A stretch of DNA of 64,000 nt from Entrophospora sp. SA101. Its lineage: Eukaryota > Glomeromycota > Glomeromycetes > Entrophosporales > Entrophosporaceae. The stretch spans positions 35,237 to 99,236 of the forward strand of contig CAUDNR010001491.1 of the NCBI GenBank assembly GCA_958430865.1. The letters run 5' to 3'. A model generated the notes under the pieces. The model had not been told where the DNA came from and ran no database searches. It worked only from the letters and a program-made list of their open reading frames with translations. Both the position numbers and the translations under genes were made by a program. This document shows positions 59 to 57,072 of this stretch, one piece after another (positions within the stretch are counted from its first letter, which is position 1; each line of letters begins with the position of its first letter).

Positions 59-3000
59 ATGTCAGTAAAAGGATGAAACTGCCCTCACTGTAATAAAATA
101 ATCGAAGAAGGAAGGGATTTTACTTGGGAGCAAAAGTGTTTTTGTGCTGGAGAAAATTGTATGAATTGTGGTAAACCACATATCAAAGGTAATGTTTATT
201 GCTCTTGTGGCGGAAATACTTATACTATTCATTCTCCAGATTGTTTAAGCAGGAACGAGCAAGAAAAAGAACAAAAAGCCCTTAAACCATTAGTCGATAA
301 ACATTTAGAAGTTTGTGATAGAGCCATTAAGTGCGATTATTGCCAGCAAAAATTTAAGTATGGTGAAGAGTGTAGTAAGACATCAAAAGGCAATAATTAT
401 CACCCAAGTTGTTGAGAAGAATTAAAAAATAAGAATAATAATGATACAGAGAGAGAGAGAGAGAGAGAGAGAGCAAAAATAAACTCTCGCAACACGGTCA
501 CTCTCGGGAAGTCAAATATCCCACCACAAGGATTTTTTAAATTAGATTTACAATTTTTCGCTGATGGAGAGGATGACCCAAAGACAACTACTCAGAAAAA
601 AAGGAGAAGTTTGGACTTGACTGAGGAAAATTGGCACGGAGAAATTGCCGAATTAAAAACACAAATTAGTAATTTAGAGGAAAAAACAGCCGAGTTAGAA
701 ACAACAATTAAGACATTAGAAGCAGAAAAACAGGAATTAAGAATAACCGCACATGTAGCCGGCGAATATGGGACATTGTTAAGTAATGCAAATTTAGAAT
801 ACCAAACCAAAATTGAAGAATTAAAAGCAGAAAATGAACAGTTAAAATCCGAGCAAGCCAGTTTAACTAGCAAACAAGACCAAAAAAATAGTAAATTACT
901 AGAAAAAGAGCAAAAATTAATTGCCCGGTTAGAAGATGAAATTAGTCAGTTGCGGAATGGGAATGAAGAAAAAAGTAAAGAATTAACCAAATTAAAAAGA
1001 GCAATGGCGGTGGCGGAGAGAAAAGCCCGCGAGGAAAGAGAAAATTTTTTCACCGAGCAAACCAAAAAAGCAGCGGAGCAAGCAAAAATTAAGCGAGAGC
1101 AAGAAGCCGAAGAAATTACCAGACTCAGAAAGGAATTAGAAAAATCAGAAATAGTTTTTAAGGAGATAGCGAACAAAAATAATGCTGAAATAGTAAGTTG
1201 GCGACACAAAAGCGAAGAACAAGAAGAAAAATTAGAAAAATTAACAGAAAAATATAACAAGTTAGTTCCTGACATTCACGAATTAGCCAAAAAAAACTGA
1301 AAACAAGCCGCGGAAATCGAAAAATTAAAAAGCGAGACAGTCATAACTCTTTCGGACACCGAAACCGATAATGAGAACAATACTGTTAGTTGTGTTAAAA
1401 AATATGACAAAGCAGCCGTTAAAATTTTAAAAGATAGTTATGAAACCGTTAAAAGAAGAAACGCCGAGTTAGAGAGAGAAATAGCCAGTTCCCGCCGCAG
1501 TTCGCTGAGTTTTGACCGTCGATACTCGTTTAACCGCCAGAGTAGTATTAATAGTATTTCTTCCAGCGGAGAAAAAGAGAATTTGGGTGATTGGTGAAAA
1601 GGTAAGGACCCCGCGGCCAGCCCTACTGATAGTTATTTTTCAGACACAGCAAAACTCCAATCCCCAACTGGCTACGAAGACAATAAGAATAAGAATAAGA
1701 ATAAGAATAAGAATAAGAATAAGAATAAGAATAAGAATAAGAATAAGACAATTGTGGTAAAAGCACCAATCCCGCCAACCAGAAGAGATACTAACACTAG
1801 TGAAAGTTCCACCAGTTTATATCCTAACGATAAAAATGGTAATGGTAGTGAAGATGAAAGATTCCCTAGTTCGCCGTCGTTGATTGAAGAATATGATAAT
1901 AGATTAAAAGCCAAAGATGAGGCGTTAAAAGACCTAGCACTCGAAAACTTTAATGAAAGAATGCTAAGTGGTAGACTAACCGAAATAAAAAAAGAACTTT
2001 CAAAACAACTAGCCGAAAGAGAGGAAGAAATCAAAAAATTAAAAGCAGAATTAGCCGCCCAGCGACTTCCCGAAATTAACTTGGAAACAATTAGCGAAGA
2101 AGAAGGAGCTGACCGCCACCTACCAAAAGAAAACAACCCTACTACTCGGAGACGGGCTAATTCCATAAAATCCTCCTCCTCTTCCTCCTCCTCCCCTCCT
2201 TTCCTTAGTTTTTCAAAACTTAAAACAGTACTTTCAGTTTCTCTTTCTAAAACGGGTAGCCAGGCTTCGAATGCTTCTACTAACTGACCCGGAAAGGAGG
2301 AAATGGAAAGAAACCTAGAATTACTTCTCGAAGAGGTTGAAAAATTAAAAAGCAACCGGCCGGTTTTTTCGGAGGGAGACTCGGAGGGAAACCAAGAATT
2401 AAAAATGGTGGAACAAGAAAAGGAAATCAGTGAATTAAAAAGCAAAATAGATGAATTAGAATTAACAATTCAAGGTAAAGAAACTGAAATAACGAGAGTT
2501 AAGACGGAAATCTACGCAGAAACAAAAGAGGTTCAAATAACAAAAGAAGCGTTAGAGGAAGTTCAATTATCACTAGCCATCCTCCAAGAAAAATATGATG
2601 AATTGGAACAAGAAAAGAGAGATTATGAAGCAAATGCGGACAATTTAAATAAAAGTTTAAAGGAAGAAAGTGAACGGGCAAATGAACTTTCAGAAAGAAA
2701 AGAATATTTAGAAAATAAAGTGGAGAAACAGAATAGAGAAATTTATTCTTTGGAGAACAGTTTATCAGCACGAGAGAAGGATTTAACAGCAGCAAAAGAG
2801 GAAATCAAGCAGGTCAAGAAGAAGATGGAGGAAGAACTTAAAATACAAGGAATGGGTCTCCAAGAGGGATTTGAAAGAAAGTTGGACGAACAAAAAGAAA
2901 AAACCCAAGTCCTGGAAACCAAAGTCCAAGTCGCCCACCAAGCCAAAAAGCAACTCGAGCAGGAACTGGCCGAAACCAAAACGGAACTGGAACAACAAAA

Positions 3001-4129
3001 AGAGAAAACCGAACAAGCGGAAAAGAAATCCCTTATTAGCGAAAAAGAGAAAAAGAGTTGAGAAAAAAGTAGCGAACTCAATCAAAAACTAGTTAAAGAA
3101 AAAGAGTTAGCAATTATTAAACTTAATGAGAAAATAGCCGAAAACCAAGAAAATATTGCTGAGTTAAAAACGAAGTTAAGTAGTCGCCCAACTGCTGAAG
3201 AATTGGCCGAAGTTAAGAATAATTATCAGAGCCTACTTGATGACAATGAAAAGAAAAATGAGAGCATAAAGGAATTAGCGGAAGAATTAAAACAAAAAAA
3301 AGATGAATTGAGGGAACAAACCAAAAATCTTCGTCAATTAGAAAGAAAATTGCAGGCTACTAATAATAATTCCTTAGCCGACCAAGCAACTATAAAAAAA
3401 CTAAATAAGCAAGTTGAGGAATTAAAAGAAGAATACAAATCAGTATCTTCTGAATTAACAAACACTAAGAATGCTTTATCAGAAGAACAACAAGAAAATT
3501 ATTCGTTGCAAAATGAACTTTGGCAAAGCAAAGAGGAATTACGAAAGATTGCTGAATGAGAAAAATTATTTCAAAACATTCAAAAAGGATATGACCAAAT
3601 ATTAACCGAGAACCAAAAAGACAAGAAAACTAAATTAGAAAATATAACCAAGAAAAGTCTGGCCGAAAAAGAAGCATTAACTACTGAAAAAAATGATTTA
3701 ATGGTAGAGAATGCTCGACTTAATTTTGATTTGAACGCCGCTAATAGTGAAATTAATGATGCCAAATCTTATCTCAATAATATTTCCGACCTAACATCAA
3801 TTAATTTAGAACCTTACAAAAACGCTTATCGTGATTTACCAAACGCTCAAACTACAATAAACAACGCCCAAACTCACTTAGGGGTTATTGATTTAAATAA
3901 TTTGCCAGATATGGGCGGGAAAAATCTCACGCAATTAGTTAATTATGCTCGTTCAAATTGTCATGTTCCTACTCACACTGATTATAACCAAAGGCACAAT
4001 GAAAGCCAAGAATATCAAAGAATAAACACTAAACTAAATGGTAAAATTTCTGATTCCGAACTAGATATTACACTTCTCAAATTAAATGTCCTCATTTTCA
4101 TAAATACTTTCCATCTCATCCACTCCTAA
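59..4129 (+). CDS. Giant zinc-finger/coiled-coil protein with in-frame microsatellites
   Basis: One open frame of 1356 aa when TGA is read as Trp. Residues 8-55 and about 86-120 carry Cys/His clusters (CPHC, CFC, CMNC, CSC, then CDYC with a distal HPSC), which look like treble-clef or LIM-like zinc modules. Residues 131-139 are an (ER)n run encoded by 12 GA dinucleotides. Residues 542-563 are (NK)n from 11 copies of AATAAG. The rest is mostly Glu/Lys/Leu heptads typical of long coiled coils, with a Ser-rich stretch near 710. No TM segment is visible. The same plan (zinc N-terminus, ER run, coiled coil) recurs in the gene at 51665-53062, so they are probably distant paralogs. The last residues before the stop look atypical and lie next to an assembly gap, so the true C-terminus may be longer. 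Function unknown; a scaffold or filament is only a guess. Confidence 0.85.
449..473 (+). repeat. GA dinucleotide microsatellite inside a CDS
   Basis: Twelve consecutive GA units in frame, coding alternating Glu and Arg. A dinucleotide tract in a coding region changes frame with each single-unit slip, the usual arrangement of a phase-variable locus. Confidence 0.9.
1682..1747 (+). repeat. AATAAG hexanucleotide repeat, 11 copies
   Basis: Eleven perfect copies of a 6-bp unit coding Asn-Lys pairs. Copy-number change would alter length without changing frame. Confidence 0.9.
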
Positions 4130-4142
4130 CAACAACTCCCTG

Positions 4143-4238
4143 NNNNNNNNNNNNNNNNNNNNNNNNNNNNNNNNNNNNNNNNNNNNNNNNNNNNNNNNNN
4201 NNNNNNNNNNNNNNNNNNNNNNNNNNNNNNNNNNNNNN
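4143..4238. other. Assembly gap (96 N)
   Basis: A run of 96 undetermined bases. The flanks (4130-4142 and 4239-4386) hold no convincing gene. The frame of the giant upstream gene closes 13 bases before the gap. Confidence 0.99.
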
Positions 4239-5570: not shown

Positions 5571-7259
5571 ATGGTAAATGCCCAAGAATATATAAACGAA
5601 AATTATCCCTTAGAAAAACGAGCCAATATTACTGAATTAGATCTTAATAATAAAAATCTAGAGGGTTCTTTAGATCTAACTACTTTCATTAATCTTCGTA
5701 AATTGAATGTCTCCTTTAACAAGTTAAATGACATTGGATTATCTAATTCCGGTAACTTGGAAGAATTTGATTGCTCCTACAATCAGTTCAATCGTCCCTA
5801 TTCTCATAACCAATTTACTAATAAATGAGCACTTTCTTTAAAAAAACTTAATAATTCTTATAACAGAATACCTAGTTTCGGATTTATTGGTTCGAATCTT
5901 ACTCATTTAGACATTACTAGTAATAACTTAACTAAGTTGGATGTCCATGAGGCTAGCAATTTAATTGAATTGAAATGTTCAGGTAATCCTATTACTAACT
6001 TAAGTTTGCCTTCTAATCCCAGTCCTAATTTTGTTGATTGTTCTATTTTGCCATCAATAAATAATTCTACTTCTTTTAGTTTAATTGCTCCTATAGCGTT
6101 AGGGATCGTTGCGGTCGGAGTTGTCTCTGTTGGTGGAATAACTTACTATCTAATAATCCGAAAGAAAAGAGAAAAAATTAGAAAACAAATAAGTCAAGTA
6201 GCGGAAGAAAGCGGCCAAGAAACAAAGTCAGAAATAGCAGATTTAGTAGAATTATTAATAAAGGAAAAACTGGCAAAAAAAGGAGAAGTTTTGGAAAAAA
6301 TAACTTTTCCTAAACCTTGATTTAATGAGGACTGCGCATTAGTCATCAGCAGGAAAGATGGAATAATTGGAAATAGCGAATATAATTTATGGGTAGCAGT
6401 TTATGAACCTTCTTTTAGAAAAGTCAAGCAAGATATTAATTTAATAAAATTTGTAAAAAAGTTGCCGGTGATTAAAGAAAAGTTGGGTGAAATAATAAAA
6501 TACTTCGGAGAAGCTTTGAATGGTGATCATCCTGCTGTAGAACTATATAATAATATCTATACTACCGAACTGCCTTCCCTAAATCAAAACTATAAAAATG
6601 TATCAAAAAAAGAGATAGAAATACCTACTCAATTTGAGCCTGATGATTATATTAGACCTTATGACATTATTAAAAGGAAAATAAAAGGCACTCTCGCTTA
6701 CCATTATGCTATTTACTTAGGTAATAAGCAAGTAGTTCATATTTCTGGCAAAGAAGTAATAGGTAAAACTGATGGCTTTCATGCTCGAAAAGATAGCTGA
6801 GAAACATTTTTGAATGGAGCAAAAGAAATAGAGATCCATCATCCCTTTATTCCTTTCAAAAGACCAGAACTGATTCAGGAACATATTGATATAGCAGAAA
6901 AAGTCAGATATGGCCAAGGTAAATACAAATTGTTTGGTAATAATTGCGAGCATTTTGCCACCATGTGTGTCTATGGTTTGGGTATGTCGCAACAAGCCAA
7001 GAGTGTAACAGGAAAGGCTGATTATTTACTAAAAGTAATAGAAGAAAACAATAAACTTTTTGAAGAGTTAGAAAAAAACCACCTAAATAGTGAATCTGAA
7101 TCTAATCAATCAATAGAAATCTATAATCAAAGAGAAAATGTCTTCCATAATAATAGCACTTCCTTACTTTCGAATTTAGAAGAAACAAATGATGATATTG
7201 AATTGGAGAATTTATCACTTCAAGCACAAATTGAAGTTAATTCCAATCAAAATAATTAA
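5571..7259 (+). CDS. LRR - transmembrane - LRAT-domain protein
   Basis: 562 aa. Residues 1-18 carry a start motif (NAQEYINENYP) shared with three other LRR proteins in the window. Residues about 20-160 are leucine-rich repeats of the LxxLxxxxN type. A TM helix follows at about 170-195, then a basic stretch. Residues about 355-480 match the LRAT/H-REV107 fold of NlpC/P60-related thiol acyltransferases or phospholipases: a His in the YHYAIYLG strand (about 378) and the hallmark NNCEHF motif (Cys about 459). LRAT domains are widespread in eukaryotes and sporadic in bacteria. The C-terminal 80 residues are Asn/Glu-rich and disordered-looking. The plan suggests a membrane-anchored binding module carrying a lipid-modifying catalytic domain. 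An interaction with host lipids is inference; the domain calls rest on visible motifs. Confidence 0.8.
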
Positions 7260-7453: not shown

Positions 7454-7930
7454 CTAGTAAGAGCAATAAATTTTGGCTGGCTCTAGGAAGATATGAGGAG
7501 TTATTTCTCCGTTGACTTGTTCGCGGGCTTGTTCTCAGGATTCGTCCTCGCTTCGGAAAAAGAAATCTATATTACCTTGCTTTTTAGAAGTCTGATAATC
7601 TCGGTAAGTTTTAGTCAGATAAGACTTAATTGCTTTATCTTCTATATCTGCCACTGACTCAAATAAACAATCCATCGTTCCATGTTCTTTAAAATGGTAT
7701 TTCATTTGTCGATAAACTGATTCCAGCATAGGTCCGCCTTCTCAGGCTTGAAATTTTTCTTTGAAGAGGACTTTGCTTTCTTTTTTTAGGACTTCCCGGT
7801 AAGTGAGATAAATCATATCTTGCATTAGTCGGTAATCTTCAATGCCTTTTCCATAAAAATACTTCGCTACTGATAGAGGCTCAATATTTAGGTTTTTTAA
7901 TTTTTGATTTGATAATGTGCGGGCTTTCAT
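7454..7930 (-). CDS. Panacea (DUF4065/SocA-like) domain protein
   Basis: 158 aa after joining two ORFs across an in-frame TGA. The order of features fits the Panacea domain: an N-terminal helix around 'VAKYFYGKG', then 'IYLTYREVL', then the family's W..GP...SVYR pattern (here WEGGPMLESVYRQ). Panacea proteins neutralise many unrelated toxins and include GepA-like proteins of mobile elements in Mollicutes. It heads a two-gene unit with 7240-7449. The domain call is by pattern only. Confidence 0.65.
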
Positions 7931-38424: not shown

Positions 38425-41400
38425 ATGAATTCAGAAAATAAGGAAACTTCCGAATTATTAGGACTCGGCAAGTTAAAAGATAAATTACTAAACTTAAATC
38501 CACTTTACAATCGAAAAATAAGATTTTATACCAGCGAACGGTTGTCGTGGGACTTAGCCGAACTATTAAATAAAAGTAATCCAAGGTTGGTTAATATTTT
38601 CGCATCTTCTATTTTAAACTTGTTAAGTAATTCCGGAAATTGTTCCCTTGATTTAGAACCATTTTTTCAGCCATTAGCTCCCGAAGATATTTCCAAGTTC
38701 CAAAAAAAGATAATTCATCTCCAAAAGAAAAATTTAGCATTTTATCAAGAAAAGGGACACAAGTCACTCTTTCTTGGTGTTGTTTTTTTACATGGTTATT
38801 TTTATAATAACAAAAATATTCTGCGCTTTGTTAATGCTCCTTTATTCTTGCTACCGTGCGATTTGGAAAAGATTAAAAATTTAAGTTTAGTTTTTCGGTC
38901 AGAACGGAAAATTAATTATAATTTACTTTATTATCTCCAAAAAGAGTTAGGCTTAGCCAAAAAAAAATTCACCGATTTTTTAAGCAAGTTAAGGAGTGAA
39001 AAAAAGGTAGACAGTTGAGAAAATTATCTAATTTTCCTTACTAATGAATTGCAAAACTTGCTTGCATCTAGTTCTATCAAAGTTACGCCCCCGTCAATAA
39101 TTTCTTCGTTAACAGAAAAAGAAAAAACAAACAGTGCTGAACTGAATCTCACTCCTTTTTTTGAAATAAAACCAAATGATATAAAAGAAGAATTTTTACC
39201 TAAGCCATTTGTTCGATTAACTTTCAGTAATAAGCCCAATTATTACCCAGAAAATCAATTAAAAATAGTTTTGAATTTTTGCTTAACCATTGATAGCGAG
39301 CCCAATTTAAGTTTATTCCGTGATTTTGAGGAAATTATTCAAGAATATTCACGAGGTAATATAATTAATTGATCGAAATCAGCCTTGAATTTGTTAAGAG
39401 GTGAGGCGGAAAGTATGGTTAGTTATTCCAAGGAGAAAGAAACGAGCAAGCAAGCAAAGCCTCTCTATACCCCTTTCCCCAGCGACCCCTCTCAAACACG
39501 AATTTTAAAAGTAATTTTTCAACACTTTTCCGAAAATGCTCTCTGCATTGATGGTCCACCGGGAACCGGAAAAAGTCAACTAATTTGTAATTTACTGGCT
39601 AATTCTTTGGCTGATCAAAAAAAAGTTTTAGTAATTTGCGAAAAAGAAGTAGCCTTAAAAGTTATCTATGATAAACTAACCTCCATCGGCCTCAATCTCT
39701 CAATTATAAAGATAAATGAATTAGCCCAAACTCCCCAAGTTTATCGGGATATATTAAACCACATCGAAAATAACCAACCAGAAAGGACTAATCGAAACTA
39801 TTACTTCGACAGTGCCAAACAAATTGCTGATTTAGAAGAAAAACAAGCGTCTAATTTAAAGAAAATTGCTAATTATTGTCAAGTTGAAAACGAATTTCAA
39901 ACTTATCGGCAAATTTCTTTACAAGAAGTTTATCTAAAATTTGACAGCAAGCAGCAATTATCGCCAACACTAATTCAATTAAATAAATCAGTCAAAAATA
40001 AGGAACAATTAGAAAAATTAAAGTTCGATTTAGGAAATTATATTAGTAAATTTAGTAAAATTTTTACAAAGTGAAAGCCAGTTCGTCTCCAACTAAAAAA
40101 TTTATTTTTAAAAAATAATCCCCAAAAATTTGAATTTAATTGAGAAAATCAAAATAATTTTCAGGAAATAATTAGTAGTATATTGAGAGAATTAAAAGGT
40201 GAAAAAACAAAAACTAATTTACTATCCCGAATTTTACGTATAAAGTTAGTCCAAGAATGCAGTAAAAATCACCAATCAATAAAATTATTAGAAAACAAAA
40301 TAAAAGATTTAGAGGAATTACAAGCGGAGCCTCGTTATCAAAACTTTTTCATTTTTTTACAAATCGAAAACTTTGCTGACTTTTGGCAAAAATGTAGCGA
40401 TGAAAAATTTTTAATTATTATTCAACAGTTTATTTCGGAGGAGTTTTTAGCCATTGGGGAACTTCATTTTTTTTGAGTCAATTTTGATGAGAATACCAAA
40501 AAAAATATTGATTACTTTTTCCAAAGGGTCTTGGTCGATCAAGAATTTAACTATTTGAATAACTACACCAAAGACTGCGAACAAGCCGTTTATTTCAATT
40601 GGATAAAAGAAGTAGAAGAAAAAAATAGAGAAGTTTTAGCGAACTGAAACCAGGGCGAATTAACCAGAATCCAACAGGAGCAACAAGAAATTGCTAAAAA
40701 GAAAAATAATTTAGTAAAAATAAGTTTGAAAAATAAGCAAAAAGAAAACTTAAATAAAATTTTCGCTAATCAAGTATTAAGAAATGAATTAGGCAAGAAG
40801 AGAAAAATTTCTTCTTTAAAAAGACTTTTTCCAGAATTAGTGAATTATTTTCCGATTTGATTGACTACTCCCGAAGTTATTGCTTCGATAACTAACCGAC
40901 AAGAAGCGCCTTTTGACTTTCTCGTTTTTGACGAAGCTTCCCAGGTGCCTTTGGAAAAAAGTATTCCACTCTGAGCCCGGGCCAAAAAATGTATTGTTAT
41001 TGGCGACGAGCAACAATTACCACCAACTGATTTTTTTAAAAGTCATTTAGGGGATGATGAGGAAATTTGAGAGCAAGAGGAGGAAGAAGAGAAATTACTA
41101 AACAACCAACAAGAAAATATTAATATAGATATTGATGATTTAGAAAAAAATAGTAATTTGTTAAGTTATGCCAAAAAGTATGTTCGCAATAAAGAAAAAT
41201 TAACTTTATTATACCATTATCGTTCGCGTTATCCAGAACTAATTGAGTTTTCTAACCAAGCTTTTTATAATGGCATCTTGCAGATTGTTTCGGCCAGCGA
41301 ATTAAGAAGAAATGATTATTCGCTCATTGAATATCATTACCAAACTAAGGGGTGCTGGATAAATACCGAAAATCAAGTAGAGGCTCGTTACATTATTGAA

Positions 41401-42225
41401 TTATTAAAAACTCTTCCACCGAATAAAGAAATTGGAATTATTACTTTTAATGTCAAACAACGAGATTTATTGATAGATTCAATTACGGAAGGAAGCAACT
41501 ATAAAAATCTATTTATTAAAAATTTGGAAGAAGTGCAAGGAGATGAAAGAGATATAATTATTTTCTCCACTGGTTATGGTCCGAACAAAGAAGGCAAAAT
41601 TTTTCTTAATTTTGGCCCATTAAACAATGAAGGAGGAGAAAAACGACTCAATGTTGCCATCAGTCGAGCCCGGGAAAAAATGATTATTGTCACTAGTCTT
41701 TTACCGGACGATTTAAAAAGAATTACCGAGGAAGACGAAAACCGAAAGCCTGGACCCAAACTATTCAAAAAGTATTTAGAATATGCTTATTATTGTTGAA
41801 AAAAAGAACCCGAAAAGGTTCAAAATTTATTAGAAAAGTCACTACCAAAAATTATTTGTCTGCCTCCCAAAAGCGGGGAATTAGCAGAATTTGGTTCGTT
41901 ATTTGAGGAACAAGTCTATAATGAATTAATAAGTCAAAATTATACTCTTGCAAACAGTTTTGAAATTCATAAGCAAGTAAAAAGTATTGGTTATCATATT
42001 GACCTAGCCATTTGAGATAATCGAACCCAACAGTATATTTTAGGGATTGAATGTGATGGAGAATATTGGCATGGCAAAACCGAAAATATTGAAAGAGATA
42101 TTTATCGGCAACAACTTTTAGAAGATAAAGGTTGAAAAATAATTCGAATTTTATCACGTGATTGATGTCGTAATAAGGGAAAAGAAATCGAAAGGATAAA
42201 AAAAGAACTCGCTCGGTTAATATAA
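38425..42225 (+). CDS. DNA2/NAM7-type helicase with C-terminal DUF559/Vsr-like nuclease
   Basis: 1266 aa in one frame across many TGA codons. N-terminal DUF4011-like region, Walker A 'DGPPGTGKSQL' (about 376-386), Walker B 'VFDEASQVPL' (about 835), 'VIGDEQQLPP', 'YHYRSRYPELI', 'EEVQGDERDIIIF' and 'RLNVAISRAREKMIIV'. The last 100 residues are a Vsr/MTES_1575-type endonuclease: 'GIECDGEYWHG' followed by 'RQQLLEDKGW' and 'RDW'. This architecture is found in putative anti-invader and repair proteins. A standalone gene, 150 bp from its neighbour; tsaD follows within 10 bp. Confidence 0.88.
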
Positions 42226-43556: not shown

Positions 43557-44666
43557 ATGGTAGATGCTCAATGATGATTAGATGAAAATTATTCAAACGA
43601 ACTAATAAAAAAAGAAATTGAAATGTTAACAATCGGAAAATATGTTAACGCGAAACATGATTATTTAGTAGAAGGTCTCTTAAATATAAGTAATTTTACA
43701 AAATTGAAGAGTTTGTATTTTTTTGATAATAAAATTACTAAATTAGTGATTGATAATTGTCCCAAAATTAAATTTATTAATTGTTGCGGTAATTTTCTTA
43801 CTGATTTGGATTTTCTTTCTAACCTTAATTCAGAAAAAATAACTAATATTCATTTGAGAAACAATAACATTTCTGAACGAGATTTAAGTTGTTTTAGTAG
43901 GCTTGTAAATTTAACTACTCTTTTGATTGGCAATTCAGTCGAAAGTAAAATTCAAAAAGGTATCTTTAACCGTTTTACTGGTAGTTTAGAGTTTTTAAAA
44001 GATTTAACTATGTTAAAAAGATTAGATATTAGAAATACTGACATTGATAGTGGCTTAGAATATTTACCTAATAGTGTCAAAGAATTTCATTGTTCAACCG
44101 ACGAGAGAAAAGAAAGTAAGGTGAAAGAAATTGAGACAGAGTTGGAACCTTTTCTCATCAGTAAGTTTCAAGAAACTTATAAATTTGGCGATTGAAGAAT
44201 AAAGAAAGGGATTGCTCTTCCAAGTTTACCAAAGAAAAAACAAGTCCGTAACAAAAACCCAAAAAAAAGAAAACCTTCCCAAAAAAAATTTCAACACCAA
44301 GGAAAGTGTGCTTTAAAACGAAGGAATAATTTGAAGATAAACAACTATGAGCAAAAACAAGAAAATTGAAAGGATATTAGTTTAGATTTTGAGAATAACA
44401 ATCAATTAACTCAAGAATGGCAAGACAAAGGATTTAATTATAATCAAACTAAGGACTGAATAGGCATTGGCTTAAAAGTTTTTGATGCTAATTTCTGTGC
44501 CTGGTTGCGGGATATTAAGCAAGTTGCTAGCGAATGATTTTTAAATAATAGTGATGTAGAAGATTTACGAAAGGAATTCCAACAATGAGCGGCTAGCGAA
44601 TTATCAAAAAAAGGGCAACAGCAATTTCAACAAATAGAAACTAATTTTTACAAAAAATATAATTAA
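43557..44666 (+). CDS. LRR protein with C-terminal W-KGF repeat
   Basis: 369 aa. The start 'MVDAQWWLDENYSNE' is a variant of the LRR-family N-terminal motif. LRRs span about 40-185 and include 'IDSGLEYLPNSV', close to 24235-25059. A very basic linker follows (about 215-275). The last 100 residues ('QEWQDKGFNYNQTKDWIGIG', then 'WLRDIKQV') are one copy of the roughly 55-residue repeat that occurs four times at the N-terminus of the HET-ankyrin protein. This links the LRR family to the HET protein by a shared module. Confidence 0.78.
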
Positions 44667-47174: not shown

Positions 47175-47200
47175 GGGGAGTTTTTTAGACTCCCCTGTTT
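47175..47200. terminator. Rho-independent terminator hairpin
   Basis: GGGGAGT (47175-47181) pairs with ACTCCCC (47189-47195), followed on the plus strand by TGTTTT. It lies at the convergent ends of 46637-47017 and 47200-51663 and may serve both. Confidence 0.7.
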
Positions 47201-50200
47201 TATTTAGACGGGATTTGGATTTGAGCTTCCACCTGCTCATCCACTTGTTGTTGTAAACTTAATTTCACAATTTCTTCACAAAGTTGGCAAATCTCCTGTA
47301 CTCTGTTAATGCGTAAACTCTCCAAAGGTATTTTGTCTTTTAAAAAGTTTTGCTTAATTTTTTCAATCTTATCTTGGCTTATTTTTATCTTGGTTTGGTC
47401 ATTATTTTGTTGGGCAAGGATTAATTGTTTATAATTGTCTTGCAAAATTTGAATTACTTTTCGATTGATGTCTTTTATACGACTAAGTATGTTTTCTAAT
47501 TGTTGTTCTTTTTCTGTCTTTTGTTCTTTTAATTTTAACCTTTCTAAGTAAATTTCTTTTACAAAATTATCATAACGTTGAGCATAAGAAGAATCCTTTT
47601 GAAGAAACAAATTCCGAACCGCAGAAATATTTTTAGAATCTGTATCAATAACTATTGATTCTTGCTGCAATAATCACTCAATTATTTTTCAATCTCCTAT
47701 TTCTCTAATTATTCCTTCGGCTGCACTATGTAAAACGGATCAACTAAATACAATAATATTATTAGTTATTTTAGTATCAATATTAATATCTCCGCCGTAC
47801 TTGACAAGTAATTTTAATGATTCTAAATCACCTTGCGTGGCTGCATTGTGGAGTGGAGTATCACCATTTTTGGAGAGATTAGGATTAGCACCATTAACTA
47901 AAAGTTTTTTGGCTATCTCTCTATATTCAGGATTTTCTTTACTTTTAGTAACGGCTATGTGTAGTGGAGAAAAACCTCCTTTATTTATAATGTTCACCTT
48001 TGCTCCTAATTCTAAAAGTTTGTCAATAACTTTAATATTTGCTTCAAGTAATGCATAATGAAGAGCACTATTACCAAAGTCATCACAAGCACTTACTTCC
48101 ACCTGTTTTTCCTTAATAAGTTCTTCAATAGCCTTGATATCATTTTCTTCTACGGCTCTGAAGAACAACTCTCTTGGAGACGAATTATTATCTTTTCTTG
48201 ATTTTTCAAGATAAATAGGTAAGTCAAGAGTTGAAAAACTAATCGTATTAGTTCGCAGACCACTTGCAACTTTACGTAACACTATCTTATCCTTATCTAT
48301 TTCGCTTAAGCATACATTGACTCCTGTAAAATGATTGCCCACTTTATAACCAGCATCACACATTACCAGTTGCCCATCTACGGAATTTCCTGCTGCACCA
48401 TATACAAAAAATATGCCACCTGTTGGTATTATTCCCACTGATATTCCGTTGCCGTTCGCATATCTTACTATTTCTTTTTCCCGTTGCTTGACAAGTTTCT
48501 CCAAAGTTTCTTGAATTCCTATTCTCTTATAACCACCTTCAGTAAACATTGCATATTCTAGACATAAATCCTTAGGCATGTTAGTCTTCTTATGAAGATA
48601 GTTGGCCAATTGCTCGCTTGTTTTGAATCTTGGTGGGGAAATTGAGTGCATAATTGATCTATATATAGTCGTAGATGTTACCCTAAAAGCACCAGTTCTT
48701 AACATTTCTTTAAGTTCAGAACATAATCAGTCAACATAACTCTTAGGCAATTTGTCTACTTCTTCTATTATTCCTAATGATTCGGCTAACTCAAGTATAG
48801 TGATAACTTTATTTTCTATTAACTGCAATAATTCATCCCACACTTCTCTCTCGGCATATTTTGAACCCTTCCTAGCAAAACCAAAAGTGCAAGGTATTGG
48901 AATTATATTACTTATTAGAGATGCCTTTGCATTATTGTTCACCAAACCTTTGCCGTCTATATATTTTCATCCAGCATCTTTTGGAGAAGCTCCAATTAAG
49001 GGTATGCAATTAGAATTTCAGATATTAGGCATGCTATAATTACCATCTCATGTCATACTCCTGCCACAAAACGCCGTTGTTGTTATGTCTCCGTTTCTTA
49101 TCAATGAACGAAAGAATTCTTCAGTTACAACAAACTTATCTTTACTATAATTAATTTCTATGTTAGTTTGCGGAAAAAGCCCAAGCAAACCATATATTCT
49201 ATCATGTTCGAGTGCAGAACTTCTTCCTGTCAATGCCACATGTACCTCGCTCCAATTTAATTTAGCATTGGAGTGCTTAATACGTAATCGCATTGTTGTT
49301 AGTGCTAATTCACTAGTCTGAACATGTTCGAAATTTAATAGAGTTGTCAAAAAACTTTTTTTTGAACCTTCAGTCAATTCCTTTAAAATTCCTGAAATTT
49401 GATCTACATCAATAAATCCATATTTATCCACATAAATTTTAACTTCTTTTGGCAAAATTAATTCTTGCAATGTCCAAACCCTTTTATATCAGGGACTAGA
49501 AACTATCAATTTATTGACTTCTAAGGCAACTAAATCAGGTAAAGTTGTTTCCGAGTACATTACATTGGTCATGTAACTTAGATCTATAGTGCTATAAATT
49601 AACTTCTTAGGAAAATTTCATTTCCAGCCTTTTTGCATCAATTGTTTCAATGAATTAGACAATTTTTCCTCATAAACATAACACTTACTAGCATTACTAT
49701 AATAGCCACCAACATGCGGAATTAAATCTTCTATTCTCATCCCCATATCGCTTTTTCCTAATTGAGGTAAGCAAGCTATATCTAATCATACTCATTCTTC
49801 GGAAATCAATTCGAACATTTTCCATAATCGTTCTTCTTTTCCTTCATCACATAAAGGAAGTTCTCAGTCAATTCCTTTAAGATATTTAGGGGCATAATTT
49901 TGCGTTTTACCCCAAACGTAAGAAATTATGGCATAATCTTTTGCACTCGCTAAACATTTGTCACATAAAGCTTGCGTGTATACAACTAATCCATCTTTTT
50001 TTCTTATCATTCGATGGGGGAAATCTCTAGGTTGACCGATGATATCTTTTCTTATATTTTTTTTGTGACCACAACCTTCTGTGTTGCATTCAAGTTCCTT
50101 ATTTTTTGAATCAGAGTTGGTTGAGTAATCATTTTTTACTTTTTTATCTCGCATTTTTCCTAATAAGATCATTTTGTCCCTATACAAATCCTGCAATTCG

Positions 50201-51663
50201 CTATTAGTTATTTCCAGTTGGTAATTTTTGTTAAAATCACCTTTTCTAATTTCTCGCAATAAATTTAATACTTCCGTCGTTTTTTGGATTATTTTATGAT
50301 CTATCGATTCGACAACTGAATTAACTCTATTTTCCAACTCAGTAGTATGACTTATCTTTCGAAAATTATCCTGTTTTACCAAGGCAATTCTTTTTTCTTT
50401 TTGATATTCTTGTTGTTTTTTCAGTAAAAAACTATCTCTTTCGTTTAATGATCTAGGTTGTTCAAAGAAATATTCGTCAGTACTCATGTAATTTTCTCCT
50501 TTATTATTAATTAATCAAACAACGTAATCTGATTCATTAGCTCTTACTCCAGTGTCAAGCCATTTTCTAGTTTGATTAAAATTAAAACCCTTGATTGTTC
50601 ATTCACTTACCAAATTAGGGTTATCCTCAAATTCTGAGGAAAGTGTTCCTCAATCTTCTTCTTGGTCACAAAGGATTTTAAATACTTCTGGTTTTAATTC
50701 AATTTCACTATTATCATAGTTTAATGATTCAAGTCATAATAAAGAATCTATACTGTAACGCGAGTTGAGTGTATCTATCATATTTTCTGCTAATTCTTCT
50801 GCTCGTTTGGCCTTTTCGCCTCTTTCGTGTTCATCTTTAATGGAGTCTTTCATTAAAATAGTTCCGAGAAGAAAATCATGAATTATCATTGGTCTTAGCA
50901 TTTCAATGCCGACTTCAGGATTTTTGTTTGTATTTGGTTCATCCAATGTTTCCTGATAAAGATTATTAAAATTCATTTGAACGGATTGAGCATCAAGTTC
51001 CCTGCTCTTTAAATAGTCGGCAAAATCAGCATCTTCGGGAGTCAATCCGATATCAATTCACTCTTTTGTTTGATCGCAATTAAAACCTTTAGTTTCTCAC
51101 TCCTTTTGTAATTTTGAAGTGAAGTCTGAATGAATGGTTTTTCATTTTTTGTTAACCTCCGAGTCTCCGTCGCCTTCTAGCGACAATTCACCCATTTTTG
51201 ATGTTATTCTACCTTCGCTACTTGAATTTTTATGTATTTCTAAAAATGTCTGCCATTGCTCTCTCAATAAACTATCGTCATTATCTTCACCTAAATACTC
51301 TGCATATTCATCAGGAGTTATCTTTGAAATATCTCTCATCCAAGCAGCATAGCCACCATCTGGCAATTCTAGACCAACACTAGTTCATTTTCCAATTTCT
51401 TCATCAGAAAATCTTTTATCTTGTCATCTTGAAATTAAGTATTCTTGATACTCTTTTTCTAATTGTTCATTATTACCATGATTTAATAATCACTCAGCAT
51501 TAACTTTTTTAATATCTCTTAATCATTTGGCATAAGCAAAATCATTAGAATTCAAACTAGAATTTATTCACTCTTTCGTTTCTTCATAAGTAAATCCTTT
51601 ATTTTCTCATTTTTCTTGTAATTCTTTCGTGAAATTTATGTCTATATTTTTCCAGTTTTTCAT
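47200..51663 (-). CDS. Giant repeat-HET-ankyrin protein
   Basis: 1487 aa in one frame across more than 30 TGA(Trp) codons. (1) Residues 1-392 hold four copies of a roughly 55-residue repeat (motifs such as 'WENKGFTYEETKEWI' then 'WLRDIKKV'). (2) A helical linker with a Cys pair. (3) A HET domain, about 575-860: 'AIISYVWGK', 'WLDIACLPQ', 'RVWTLQEL' and 'RIYGLLGL' match the SYVWG, W.D..C..Q, RaWTLQE and D..YaLLGL hallmarks of fungal heterokaryon-incompatibility proteins. (4) Ankyrin repeats, about 1155-1330 ('GNSALHYALLEANI', 'GFSPLHIAVTKSK', 'GDTPLHNAATQGD'). (5) A C-terminal coiled coil. An internal ATG at 50487 has a good AGGAG site upstream, so a shorter HET-ankyrin form may also be made. 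Follows 51665-53062 by 1 base. In fungi HET domains trigger cell death; its role here is unknown. Confidence 0.85.
50490..50505 (-). promoter_or_regulatory. Internal Shine-Dalgarno-like site before ATG 50487
   Basis: AAAGGAG about 7 bases upstream of an in-frame ATG at 50487 within the HET gene. Striking because most starts here lack such a site; could allow a shorter HET-ankyrin product without the W-KGF repeats. Confidence 0.4.
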
Positions 51664-51664
51664 A

Positions 51665-52077
51665 TTATTTCTTTATTCTCTGACGATTTCTCGCCAGAAT
51701 AAAGATTAAAAGTAAAGTAAATAAGCCAATTATCCCTAAACCAATATAAAGAGCAGTTTTATCACTTGGTTTAGCATTATTAGTATTAGAATTACTTTGT
51801 TTGGCTAATAATTCCGCTAATTCTTGCTTTTTACTAGTTAAAAGTGCTTCTTCCGTTGCTGTTCTAGTAGGTTTATTAGTCAGTTCTTTAATTTCCCTTT
51901 CTAAAATAGCAATCTGAGTAGTTATTGGTAAAGATTGCGTTAGTTCTTTTTGTTTATTCTCTAGTTCAGTTAATTGCTGTTTTTTAGCCGCTAATTCGGC
52001 TTGGTTTTGCGGGTTAGTAGCATTTTGTTCTAGTTGCATGATTTCAGTAAGTAATTGTGCTTGTTGAGACTGAATTT

Positions 52078-52117
<40 letters not shown>

Positions 52118-53062
52118 ATTAGTGTTAGGATTACTTATATTGGTATTAATAATAATACCTTCTTCCTTAGCAAATTCACAGCAGTAGTCCTCAATATAAC
52201 CACTCATCTCTTGAAAAACCAAAAACTCATCTTTTATGTTTTCAAAAAAATTTCCTCTTCATAAACTTTGCCAATTATCATAGTAATCTTTTTTTTTGAG
52301 AAATTTAGTAAACTTTCACCGCTTTAATCCTTCCTTATCTAGCCACTCTTCTACTTTTTTGCAATATCATTTTTGAAAAGCCTTAGTAAAACTAGAATTC
52401 TTATCTTCTCCACAGTCCAAGCAGTAAGCACTTTCGGTCTCATCTCTTTGAAAAAGTTCTCTTCAGTGAATGTTTGAGTGTTGACAATCTTTACTTACTA
52501 CCTGACCCCTATTTTCATCTATCCATTTTGCTTTAATCACTACTTGGCAAGGAACATTATTTTCTAGTTCTTCTAATGGTTTCTTTAAAAATATTTCAAT
52601 AGATGTTTTAAGAAGTTCGCTTTCAATTTTCTCTTTAAGCAAAATATTTACCTTTTCTTGCAGTTTTTTAATTTTTTTGTATTCCTTAAACGTTATATCA
52701 TTAGTGTCTATTTGCTCTAATTCTTTTAGGTATTTACTATACTTATCAGTTTGCTCTCTATCTTTTTTGTCTTCTTTTTCTAAATCATTAATTTCTTTAC
52801 ATTCTGCACAACTACCATCCACAAGAACATTACATCATTTGCACCATTTGTATACATAACAAGCTTCAGTTCCACAAGTATCACCCATTCCACAGTGGGG
52901 ACATTTTATATAAGTTGTTGAAGTTATCGAATCATTTCCGGTATAAGTTTGATATGATACTTTTTTACCTCCACAATGACATTCTTGACAAAGTAATTCA
53001 CCAGATTTTTCACGATAAGAAGCTTTTTTGTCGCATTTACAGCAAGTCAGTTTTTTGTCCAT
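51665..53062 (-). CDS. Zinc-finger/coiled-coil/TM protein with GA microsatellite
   Basis: 465 aa. Residues 5-95 carry five Cys pairs (CCKC, CQEC, CPHC, CKWC, CAEC and others), probably two or three zinc modules. A coiled coil follows, then an (ER)n run at about 317-328 encoded by 17 CT/GA units, another coiled coil, and a C-terminal TM helix (about 437-459) with a basic tail. It resembles 59-4129 in plan. Its stop and the start of the HET gene are 1 base apart, so the two are cotranscribed; slippage in the GA tract would remove the TM anchor and could uncouple the HET gene. Confidence 0.75.
52079..52112 (-). repeat. GA dinucleotide microsatellite, 17 copies
   Basis: CT x17 on the plus strand, in frame in the 51665-53062 gene, coding alternating Glu and Arg. 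Longest dinucleotide repeat in the window. Confidence 0.9.
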
Positions 53063-53203
53063 GATTTTACTATATTGTAATTTTACAAAAACCAACTACT
53101 GTGCAGCTGAATATTTTGTAAAAAAAATTCTTAGAGAGTTAGAAAAATTATTCCATCAATTTGTCAGGAACGCTGTTTAATCATAAATTTTGTAGATTTA
53201 TTT

Positions 53204-53761
53204 TTACTTATCTTCTTTCAGCAATTTATACATGACATAACAAGCTCCTGCCATCATAATATTTTCTAAAGTTAAGAATTCTCAAATTCAATGCTTTTCA
53301 TCAGTATTTGAACCGATATTCGAGATTGTTTCGTTATTCTTTTTCCTTTGTTCATCATTTCTTTTCCTCTCATCACGATAAGATTTATTTTGTCCTTTTA
53401 AGTCATCTAGTTGAGTTTGAAGAAAACCTAGTTTACCGCGTAATTCTTCCTCTCTTTTTTTGGAAATATTAGGGTCATCTAACTCTTTTTTTATATCGCT
53501 TATTTCTTTTTCAATTTGTTTTTCTTTTTCTTCTCCTTGTCTTAATTTGTCATCTAGTTCTTTATTTCTGGCATTTAATATTTCGTTTTCTTTTCTTGCT
53601 TCGTCCATTGATTTGCCTTTCAAAGCATACTTTTCTCTTTTGGTTTTTTGACCATGTTTGTAAGCATCATGGCCTTTTTTGCAGACATAACCGGCACCGA
53701 ATACAGTTACGCACCAACAAACAGCTTTTATTCCTAAGGGTATTAATAGTGGTGCTGGCAT
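53204..53761 (-). CDS. Coiled-coil protein with terminal hydrophobic segments
   Basis: 185 aa. N-terminal hydrophobic helix (about 4-28) with Cys residues, a long Lys/Glu coiled coil, and a second hydrophobic stretch near the C-terminus ('NIMMAGACYVMY'). Two Trp are TGA-coded. The 141-bp gap to the next gene downstream (start 53062) may hold a promoter. Not recognised. Confidence 0.6.
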
Positions 53762-53929: not shown

Positions 53930-55855
53930 TTATTTACTTTTCATGTTTCCTCCTATCTCTGATAAGAGACCGGTTATCTGTTCAACCGCATTGTTAAAAT
54001 TTTCATTGAAAACATTATTGGCTACCTGCACTTCCTCTTTTATTGTGGCAATAGTTTCATCAAGTGTTTTTAAGCGAGTATCTAAGGCTTTACTGATATG
54101 ATTACTGGCTTGGATTACTACATCTTGAATCTTGGGTTCCCGCGGATCAGTAAATTTACCATCAAAATCCGTATCTCATAATTCTCCGCTATCAAATTTT
54201 TGTCAAAAGAATTGTAAAAGTTCTCCTAATTGGATACCTTTTTGTTTTATTGTTTCTTCTCCTTTTTCATCGGTTTCTTTTTCCTCATTGAGAATTTTCT
54301 TATTGTCCTCGTTGTTAATAAACTTATCTCAAAATGATACTGCATTATCAACGCTTTCGCCGGTAATTTTTCGACCTAAAAAACTTTCTTCAAAATGAAT
54401 TATATTAAATCTATTCACTCACTTATTATCCTCTTCGCTTAAAGAATCACTATCTATTCAATGTTGCGGAAATTGACCAATAATCCCAGCATTAGAGGAG
54501 TATTCCTTAAATTTTCCCAAAGTCCAACTAAAACAGAGACGATTAGCCAAACGACCGGGCTGATAAACTGCTTCATCAATCTCACTTAAATGGTTAGTGG
54601 CAATAATTCATAAATTATGACTTTCATTTTTCTTCCAATTATCACTACCCATACACTCTTTGAGAAAAGTTAATCCAGATGATTTTGTTACAAAAGTGTT
54701 TTCACTAACTTGATTGGCTTCATCAATAAAAAAAATGTAACGAGGTTCGCCACTTTCATAATTCCTTTCAAAATCAAAATCATCTACTAATGTATTATTA
54801 ATATCACAGATGGTATAAATGAATTTCTTAAAGTTATTAATACCACATTTTTGATCATTAATGGTGGGAGTAAGAGCGGAACCTTGAATTACTACCAAAG
54901 GATACGAGTCTGCTTTATAGGCCAATTTTTCCACTATAATTGACTTACCAGTTCGCGGTGCTCCATAAAGAGTAGCGTTATTATCGGTGTTGCTTTTATC
55001 TCTTTCTCCTCTGACTGGATCAATAAGTGCTTTGTCATATCAGTTATCAATTTTCGGATTAAAGGTATAACTGTCAACTTCATCTCTTAATTTAAGTTCT
55101 TCGGCTCTTTCATGCACCTTTTGTTCCTCGGTTAGTTCACTCCAAAGAGAAGGAGGAAAATTAATCTTATAAGAAGCGGCGAAATTACATTTATTTGGTT
55201 CTTTCTCTGGTTCATTATGGGGATTTACTAATCCATTCAACTGATTTCAAGCTTGGTCAAAATCTTGTTTAAGGATTTCTAACTTTTTCTCAGCCCAGTT
55301 TTTTGGTTCTCTTAATCAGTGTAATTTTTGTCTTTTGTTTTTTTGTTCGGCAGTGACTTTGTTAGCCTCATCAACAATGGAAGATATGTCATTTTCAGAA
55401 GCGTTGTTAATTCTTTTGTAAAATTTTTTGACATCTTTTTCAAAGGAGGGTGTTTTTTTTATTTCCATTTCTGCAAACTTTTTTATACTGTTAATAGCAT
55501 TCTCCCGAGCTTCTTTTAAATTTTTTGCTTTCCCGGCTTCTATCTCTTTTTTCCTAGTCTCAATTGCTTCTCTAATATTTTCACTAAATTTACTAATCTG
55601 AGTAGGTAAATATAACTTGTCTAAGCGTTCTTGTCAAGATTTAAATCCTTTTCATAAACTAGCATCTAAATCAGCGACAGCAACAGGTGAATTTTCTCTA
55701 AATATTTCCTCAATCTCTTTTCTAGCCTCATTTCTTTGCTCAGGTAAGAAAAAAAAGAGATAGTAACCCATTCCTATTAAGAGCATAATAACTAAATACT
55801 GTAACTGCTCTTTGCTTTTTTCTTCTTTTTCTTGGTGAGATGGAAATAGATTCAT
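53930..55855 (-). CDS. Membrane-anchored AAA+ ATPase
   Basis: 641 aa. TM helix at about 23-42, a helical region to 290, Walker A 'GAPRTGKS' (about 300-307), Walker B 'IFFIDEAN' (about 369-376), sensor 1 'LWIIATNH' (about 417-424), and a likely arginine finger in 'GRLANRL'. A helical C-terminus follows. The N-terminal TM plus AAA domain resembles FtsH/BCS1-like topology but there is no protease domain. Only visible motor protein of the 46-64 kb block, so it probably powers whatever that block builds. The neighbours are tight (53925, 55859). Confidence 0.8.
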
Positions 55856-56115: not shown

Positions 56116-57072
56116 TTAGAAATCGTAATAATTTGGTTCTTTTGATTCTTTTTGAGATTGCGAATAGAAGTAAAAAACAACCAACAGAGCAACACTACCA
56201 AAGATAATTAGTCGTTGATTGCCTTGAAGCGGATTTTCTTTTTTATCATTTTTTCTAGAATCTGGATCTGAGCCATCGCCTCCTGTATTATTGGAACCGT
56301 TGTCATCTTCATCATCCCCATCGTTATCATTTTTTTTATTTCTGTTTCTTCCACTACCACTTCCTCCTGAACCACTTCCTCTATTATTTTCAATTGCTTG
56401 CTTTATTGATTCTATTAAATCATCAATTCTCTTGTTGGGGTCAAAATTAAACTTGTTAGAGAGTTCCTGTTGCTTTTTCACATTTGCTTTTAACTTTTTA
56501 CCATCATCCTCAATTAGTTGCAAAAGAAGTGCTTTTTGGGCTGGATCTTTTTCGTTCATAGCCTTTTTCTTATTTTCTTCCATCTTCTTCTTAATTTCTG
56601 CCTCCTCTAATTTAAGTTGCTTTAACTCTTGAACTCACTTATAATCTTCTCTTTCTAAATCACCTTTCAATTTGGTTAAATCATTCGAAAAGTTCTTCAA
56701 CTTTGAAATGACATGCTTATCCATACCTTCGTCGGATCAAATACAACAAACACCAAACATAGAACTAGAAGCACTCTTTTCTTGCAAACCTCTTAAAGAC
56801 TCTTCGCATTTTCTAATATAGTTGCCTTTTTTAGCATCATACTCGCTTTTATTAGTGCATTTTTTTAATTCTTCTTTGATTTCTCTTAAACTTTCTAATT
56901 TGTTAAAAGAGCCGGTTAGCGTTTGGCAATCTTCTTTTAAACTGTGGTTACCGCCTCAATTACATCTGCCGCCAGTTCAGTAGCTCGCGTCATTAGCGTA
57001 TTTTTTTCTGCCTCTGCGAGATCCACCGAGGTTTCTAAATTGTCTTTCTAATTGTTCTGCTGTATATGTCAT
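56116..57072 (-). CDS. Coiled-coil/linker/TM protein
   Basis: 318 aa. A Cys/Trp-containing N-terminal region, a coiled coil (about 110-220), a Gly-Ser linker followed by an Asp/Asn-rich low-complexity segment (about 222-275), and a C-terminal TM helix (about 290-308). A flexible spacer between coiled coil and anchor suggests a tethered surface or assembly component. Ends 2 bases before 56113. Confidence 0.65.

Follow-up and report, generated by a model that had tools for sequence, protein, structure and literature searches.

A W-KGF, HET and ankyrin protein in endobacterial DNA

Our analyses concern a 64,000-nucleotide stretch of DNA (hereafter the window; G000:C1178:35237-99236) from the genome assembly for Entrophospora sp. 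SA101, a mycorrhizal fungus of the Glomeromycota under whose name the proteins of this locus are filed in databases. The assembly totals 101.3 Mb in 2123 contigs. The window encodes a 1487 amino acid (aa) protein that joins four copies of a repeat, here termed W-KGF, to a HET domain and to ankyrin repeats, and its gene is the last one of a membrane-protein operon. An earlier reading made from the letters of the DNA (the sequence-only reading) had described the same open frame in a bacterium with TGA as a tryptophan codon, and the same parts, viz. an unrecognised N-terminal repeat, a fungal-type HET domain, C-terminal ankyrin repeats and a terminal position in a membrane-protein operon. These descriptions hold in the results that follow, with corrections given where they arise. 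The features of the gene are:

47200..51663, minus strand: W-KGF(x4)-HET-ankyrin protein, 1487 aa under code 4 (Pfam and W-KGF profile)
51514..51657, minus strand: W-KGF module 1, residues 3-50 (profile)
51331..51471, minus strand: W-KGF module 2, residues 65-111 (profile)
51004..51147, minus strand: W-KGF module 3, residues 173-220 (profile; helical model, mean pLDDT 85.2)
50506..50655, minus strand: W-KGF module 4, residues 337-386 (profile)
49462..49935, minus strand: HET domain PF06985, residues 577-734 (Pfam, over cut-off; invariant residues)
49084..49461, minus strand: residues 735-860, a conserved extension of the HET region in which R814 and D821 are reported invariant (alignment)
47746..48174, minus strand: ankyrin repeats, at about residues 1164-1306 (above the cut-off of five Pfam models)

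The frame runs from an ATG start to a TAA stop and specifies tryptophan by 25 in-frame TGA and 10 TGG codons; translation table 11 breaks it into five open reading frames (ORFs) of at least 100 aa. From base composition, the natural logarithm of the probability that 1487 codons contain neither TAA nor TAG (ln P) is -101.6. In-frame TGA is found in all 15 of the window ORFs that were checked, and the contig carries the bacterial core genes for UvrB, AspS, TsaD, L14 and L5. The window is hence a contig of Mollicutes-related endobacteria (MRE) within a fungal assembly, and the bacterium of the sequence-only reading, correctly recognised as bacterial and TGA-decoding, is an endobacterium. Its assignment to the Ca. 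Moeniiplasma type rests on the genetic code, the gene content and the host, the assembly being of the Mucoromycota/Glomeromycota kind in which such bacteria occur. The assembly holds three full copies of UvrB (C1178; C1773, 77%; C1734, 59%) and one partial copy (C994), which suggests at least three co-resident endobacteria. The window also has a gap of N at 4143-4238.

The public entries for the giant gene, 3923_t and 17302_t, are filed as spliced fungal models; one model (P0002, taken as the same locus as the window) extends from the upstream gene U into the HET part and the other (P0003) covers the C-terminus. The contig of P0002, at 59762 nt, is as long as the part of the 99236-nt scaffold that follows the gap of N, and its identification with the window locus is based on this. 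It could be argued from these entries that the gene is the fungus's own, misassembled or misread with code 4. This is very improbable: the exons of both models contain no TGA, yet their spans contain 23 (20 in P0002 and 3 in P0003, counted protein by protein and omitting any that fall between P0002's U exons and its HET exons), and both the TGA codons in the neighbouring ORFs and the bacterial core genes on the contig stand against it. Judged by their codons, 3923_t and 17302_t are false fungal models of bacterial DNA (window 47200-53062). The published fungal gene set thus contains endobacterial genes masked by false introns, and genes disguised in this way can mislead work on fungal immunity and gene transfer.

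Domain composition of the giant protein

The HET domain (PF06985) was identified with E=5.7e-7 and 30.4 bits, against a cut-off of 22.5, at residues 577-734 (profile positions 1-146). This is narrower than the extent first proposed (residues 560-880), with a conserved continuation to about residue 860. In an alignment of 68 HETs, made up of the window HET, P0004 and 66 proteins drawn from the 119 others of the profile-search list, 13 columns are reported invariant (viz. Y577, I579, S581, W584, W626, D628, C631, W730, L732, Q733, E734, R814 and D821), and the domain looks intact by this measure. The invariant E734 is a putative equivalent of the catalytic glutamate of TIR domains.

Our first search of the assembly, which missed the window's own copy, returned six HET matches, each with in-frame TGA; with the window HET as query the sole match was itself, and its identity to three other endobacterial HETs is 21-25%. 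A profile built from four endobacterial HETs retrieved 279 database proteins. Because the organism-named proteins among the best 120 of these are fungi (P0002, which bears a fungal label, being the window locus), a horizontal origin of the HET domain appears likely. The horizontal acquisition that had been suggested is borne out to this extent; the HET trees named no donor and neither supported nor refuted a single origin of the endobacterial HETs, and the six assembly HETs are all TGA-coded. The accompanying remark that bacterial HETs are rare needs qualifying, as HET genes in MRE are in print in passages of Daskalov 2023 (PMC10197012, citing Torres-Cortes 2015 and Naito 2015). In fungi, HET domains lead to cell death according to passages of PMC10890737 and PMC12881547, the first of which describes the killing mechanism as unknown. 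On two other contigs (L005 on C864 and L006 on C231), sequence that appears fungal- or transposon-like by eye lies next to a HET fragment in which TGA occurs in frame; the two copies share 92% identity across 2204 columns. A stop-free kinase of host type is present on C864 as well, and the fragments are possibly endobacterial DNA within the fungal genome.

The ankyrin repeats exceed the cut-offs of five Pfam models, with the best stretches inside residues 1164-1334. Up to residue 572 there is no Pfam match at E<=1 other than a sub-threshold one to "Gin" at 555-572. The N-terminal repeat is real and consists of four 47-aa helical tryptophan modules. The W-KGF profile matches 49 of 778 ORFs from the window and the fetched DNA and none of the same 778 after letter shuffling, the profile having been trained on matches among those same ORFs. 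Across the assembly (78 candidates scored) there are 45 matches on 24 contigs. Because all 45 have in-frame TGA, the W-KGF repeat, by its codon usage, belongs to the endobacteria within this assembly. One further protein in the window carries it:

43557..44666, plus strand: leucine-rich repeat (LRR) protein with a single W-KGF module at its end, residues 270-319 (Pfam, W-KGF profile)

A related LRR/W-KGF protein from another sequence source is 98% identical across the W-KGF region, and may derive from the same organism's reads. At a contig end (L049 1729-2163, on C304) lies a W-KGF protein whose N-terminal 101 residues show 67% identity to the start of the giant protein; it is probably a close relative cut off by the contig end.

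The upstream operon and its recurrence

Upstream of the giant gene lie four genes on the same strand, in keeping with the membrane-protein operon of the sequence-only reading (TM, transmembrane segment):

51665..53095, minus strand: gene U (ORF list and hydropathy scan; listed start TTG, in-frame ATG at codon 12)
52079..52112, minus strand: (GA)17 tract inside gene U, between its halves, in frame in the window copy
53204..53761, minus strand: gene TMCC, TM plus coiled-coil-like, 185 aa (sequence make-up, TM scan)
53930..55855, minus strand: AAA ATPase with N-terminal TM, 641 aa (PF00004, 35.8 bits against a cut-off of 21.2)
56116..57072, minus strand: gene CCTM, coiled-coil-like plus C-terminal TM, 318 aa (sequence make-up, TM scan)

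The U protein, which has zero Pfam matches, consists of a Cys-rich N-terminus (zinc-ribbon-like by eye), an (ER)n stretch, a coiled-coil-like part and a C-terminal TM, and the stop codon of its gene lies 1 nt upstream of the HET gene. The AAA protein has homologues at four other loci in the assembly with 40-46% identity. The order CCTM-AAA-TMCC(-like)-U(-like)-W-KGF protein is found in four places, viz. the window and contigs C295, C1459 and C390, with distances of 1, 1, 2 and 2 nt from the stop of U to the start of the last gene. Blastp supports CCTM in C295, C1459 and C390, TMCC in C390 alone and U in C295 alone. Position, TM and make-up were the grounds for the remaining assignments, and the hydropathy scan shows no TM for the CCTM of C295. 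At the fifth AAA locus (C1609), the AAA gene and a TMCC match (E 6e-5) are followed by convergent, truncated W-KGF/kinase-linker genes.

The core domain of the operon's last gene differs between these copies as assembled. Where the window has four W-KGF modules, HET and ankyrin, C295 has W-KGF-LRR-HET-W-KGF with a different HET (69.7 bits), in a sequence that stops short of the 3' end; C1459 has W-KGF-LRR-kinase-W-KGF, with a protein kinase at E 2.4e-45; and C390 has five W-KGF matches and zero Pfam domains, followed by a kinase-type linker ORF. The LRRs of C295 and C1459 are below the Pfam cut-off, but they match the LRR protein of the window.

In the assembly the kinase family has at least 211 matches, with 131 of its 2654 candidates scored. 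The nine best listed, together with the lower-ranked match on C792, contain in-frame TGA and are 49-99% identical to the query, a count of ten that leaves out C1831 (one TGA, 41% identity). Nearly all the other listed matches lack TGA, at about 39-53% identity, and a few contain TAA or TAG; because nearly all of these lower-ranked matches have no TGA, the family is, on codon evidence, one expanded in the host. A W-KGF match lies within 1 kb of 7 of the 10 TGA-coded kinases and of 2 of the 7 HET places; in C295, W-KGF modules share an ORF with HET at a distance of about 2 kb. Fungal-type PknD kinases with LRR genes around them are described for MRE in passages of PMC10507103.

GA tracts

In the window and the fetched DNA, a non-random sample in which some tract-bearing genes are not U homologues, we found 13 distinct GA tracts of at least 12 nt. 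Five lie in a single frame (window U, window ORF 59-4129, C295, C390 and C1459), five are split, with flanking halves that are open in different frames and meet at the tract (two in C1992, and one each in C1609, C37 and C458), and three were unclassifiable. The arrangement of a simple repeat within an ORF, with related copies in and out of frame, is that of a phase-variable locus, and the pattern is a candidate product of slipped-strand switching; the main alternative is that runs of dinucleotides were misassembled. For window U, translation in either of the two other frames would end 15-20 codons past the tract. A frameshift would end translation of U early, and therefore re-initiation 1 nt after its normal stop would be lost, so that the giant protein itself is probably phase-variable. 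A second GA tract in the window (448-473, 26 nt) is in frame in ORF 59-4129, which encodes a long protein with a Cys-rich start.

Other genes in the window

The window also encodes an LRAT domain protein of eukaryote type (5571-7259; PF04970, 59.1 bits against a cut-off of 24.3) with a sub-threshold LRR match, a helicase-type protein of 1266 aa (38425-42225) with an MTES_1575 restriction endonuclease domain (94.6 bits against 38.2), and a SocA/Panacea antitoxin-like protein (7454-7930) barely above its cut-off (25.9 against 25.7 bits).

Proposed function and alternative explanations

The anatomy of the giant protein, the order of the genes around it, the exchange of the core domain and the GA tract are features of the assembled sequence. 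The best reading of them, to which we assign a probability of about 0.45, is that the giant protein is a host-directed, probably phase-variable protein on a membrane chassis, because the core domain is swapped between HET and host-type kinase while the W-KGF modules and the membrane operon stay. We infer the docking, export, target, switching and benefit of the protein as follows. The W-KGF array would dock it onto a membrane complex of the AAA ATPase, TMCC and U; HET and ankyrin would have host proteins as their targets, reached at the membrane of the endobacterium or across it; and the most likely effect would be that host death or immune signalling is engaged or blocked, so that the endobacterium persists. 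Slippage in the (GA)n tract would switch U on and off and, via translational coupling, the giant protein with it. On this reading, the operon would be a phase-switched chassis from which signalling domains of eukaryote type are displayed or delivered in the direction of the fungus. The sequence-only reading had offered two roles, viz. an effector aimed at a fungal host, for which the location of the contig in a fungal assembly supplies the host while the effector role would follow from the reading above, and a bacterial defence toxin, which we find the less likely because the parallel operons replace HET by a host-type kinase or by nothing recognised.

In its fuller form, the defence explanation makes the HET domain a TIR-like, NAD-consuming toxin of an intrabacterial suicide module, released when the ankyrin and W-KGF parts and the AAA ATPase sense a phage or a rival. 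We regard this as unlikely. At three of the five AAA loci (C1459, C390 and C1609, the last incomplete) there is a kinase, a kinase linker or no HET, and host-type kinases would be odd for phage defence. PADLOC returned for the giant protein an ankyrin-region match only (PDC-M72A) and for the AAA protein weak matches; beyond ankyrin or generic AAA, no component of a known anti-phage system was found in these two proteins. No relatives were found in the collections searched with each of four queries, viz. the complete giant protein, its HET piece, its W-KGF region and the AAA protein (phages and plasmids, IMG/VR and GTDB contigs, not every query in every one).

Another explanation is a surface or scaffold system with phase and antigenic variation, in which W-KGF, LRR, HET and ankyrin would be binding surfaces only and HET would itself be inactive. 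Of these parts W-KGF, with 45 places, occurs most often, LRR recurs, the simple-repeat tracts resemble the contingency loci of other mollicutes, and several short window proteins (by eye) as well as U end in a hydrophobic stretch followed by basic residues. However, the core residues of HET and a whole kinase domain are kept, and activity is therefore favoured over a binding-only role, so that this explanation too has a low probability. Less probable again is that the genes were acquired by transfer and are now drifting, as host-type sequences shuffled by recombination and devoid of function. Passages of PMC11423566 describe MRE assemblies as generally rich in pseudogenes and repeats, and our assembly contains several split or truncated copies; against this, the window copy is open across all 1487 codons at the ln P given above, the invariant HET residues are kept, and gene order is maintained at 40-46% AAA identity.

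Relationship to known systems and significance

Host-derived HET, kinase and LRR genes of MRE, of the same bacterial group and with the same kinds of domain, are described in passages of PMC10197012 and PMC10507103. The passages of PMC10507103 do not mention the W-KGF module, a fixed AAA/membrane operon or a GA tract, and "HET" and "ankyrin" do not occur there as whole words. Fungal HET and HET-ankyrin proteins share the HET core and its continuation with the giant protein, and HET and ankyrin models co-occur in some of the HET-profile matches (P0062, P0066 and P0110); the window HET has about 15-30% identity to the database HET matches, and the giant gene is bacterial in its W-KGF modules, its TGA code and its operon. 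Fungal NOD-like receptors (NLRs) of the HET-NACHT-WD type (HET-E, HET-D and HET-R) likewise combine HET with a repeat domain, but the window HET is central instead of N-terminal, and no NACHT or NB-ARC Pfam model matches the giant protein at E<=1, which sets it apart from the fungal NLRs. TIR-domain NADases are remotely homologous to HET according to passages of PMC4986451; a TIR-like fold and NAD cleavage are putative features of the window HET. The simple-repeat contingency loci of mycoplasmas likewise have a dinucleotide tract in a membrane-protein gene with copies in and out of frame; in the present case the frame differences were observed between assembled copies. In the passages of the literature covered, which did not include the 2015 papers (Naito, Torres-Cortes), there is no mention of W-KGF, of an operon with an exchangeable last gene or of the GA tracts. 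Relative to these passages, the distribution of the W-KGF module, this operon and the GA tracts are new, and the HET, kinase and LRR genes of MRE were already in print.

A wider proposal, which we put forward as speculative and rather unlikely, is that MRE own a dedicated host-interface system, in which a phase-switched membrane AAA complex would carry an exchangeable HET or kinase on a W-KGF docking chassis and would address the cell-death and kinase networks of the fungus from within. Passages of PMC11423566 and PMC12306442 describe the role of these common mycorrhizal endobacteria as largely unknown or untested, and a review reports that a host with such endobacteria sporulates less (passages of PMC12306442). 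With its exchangeable domains of fungal type and its slippage tract, the operon provides testable candidates for the hold of the endobacterium on its host, and it also bears on whether HET domains act outside fungi.

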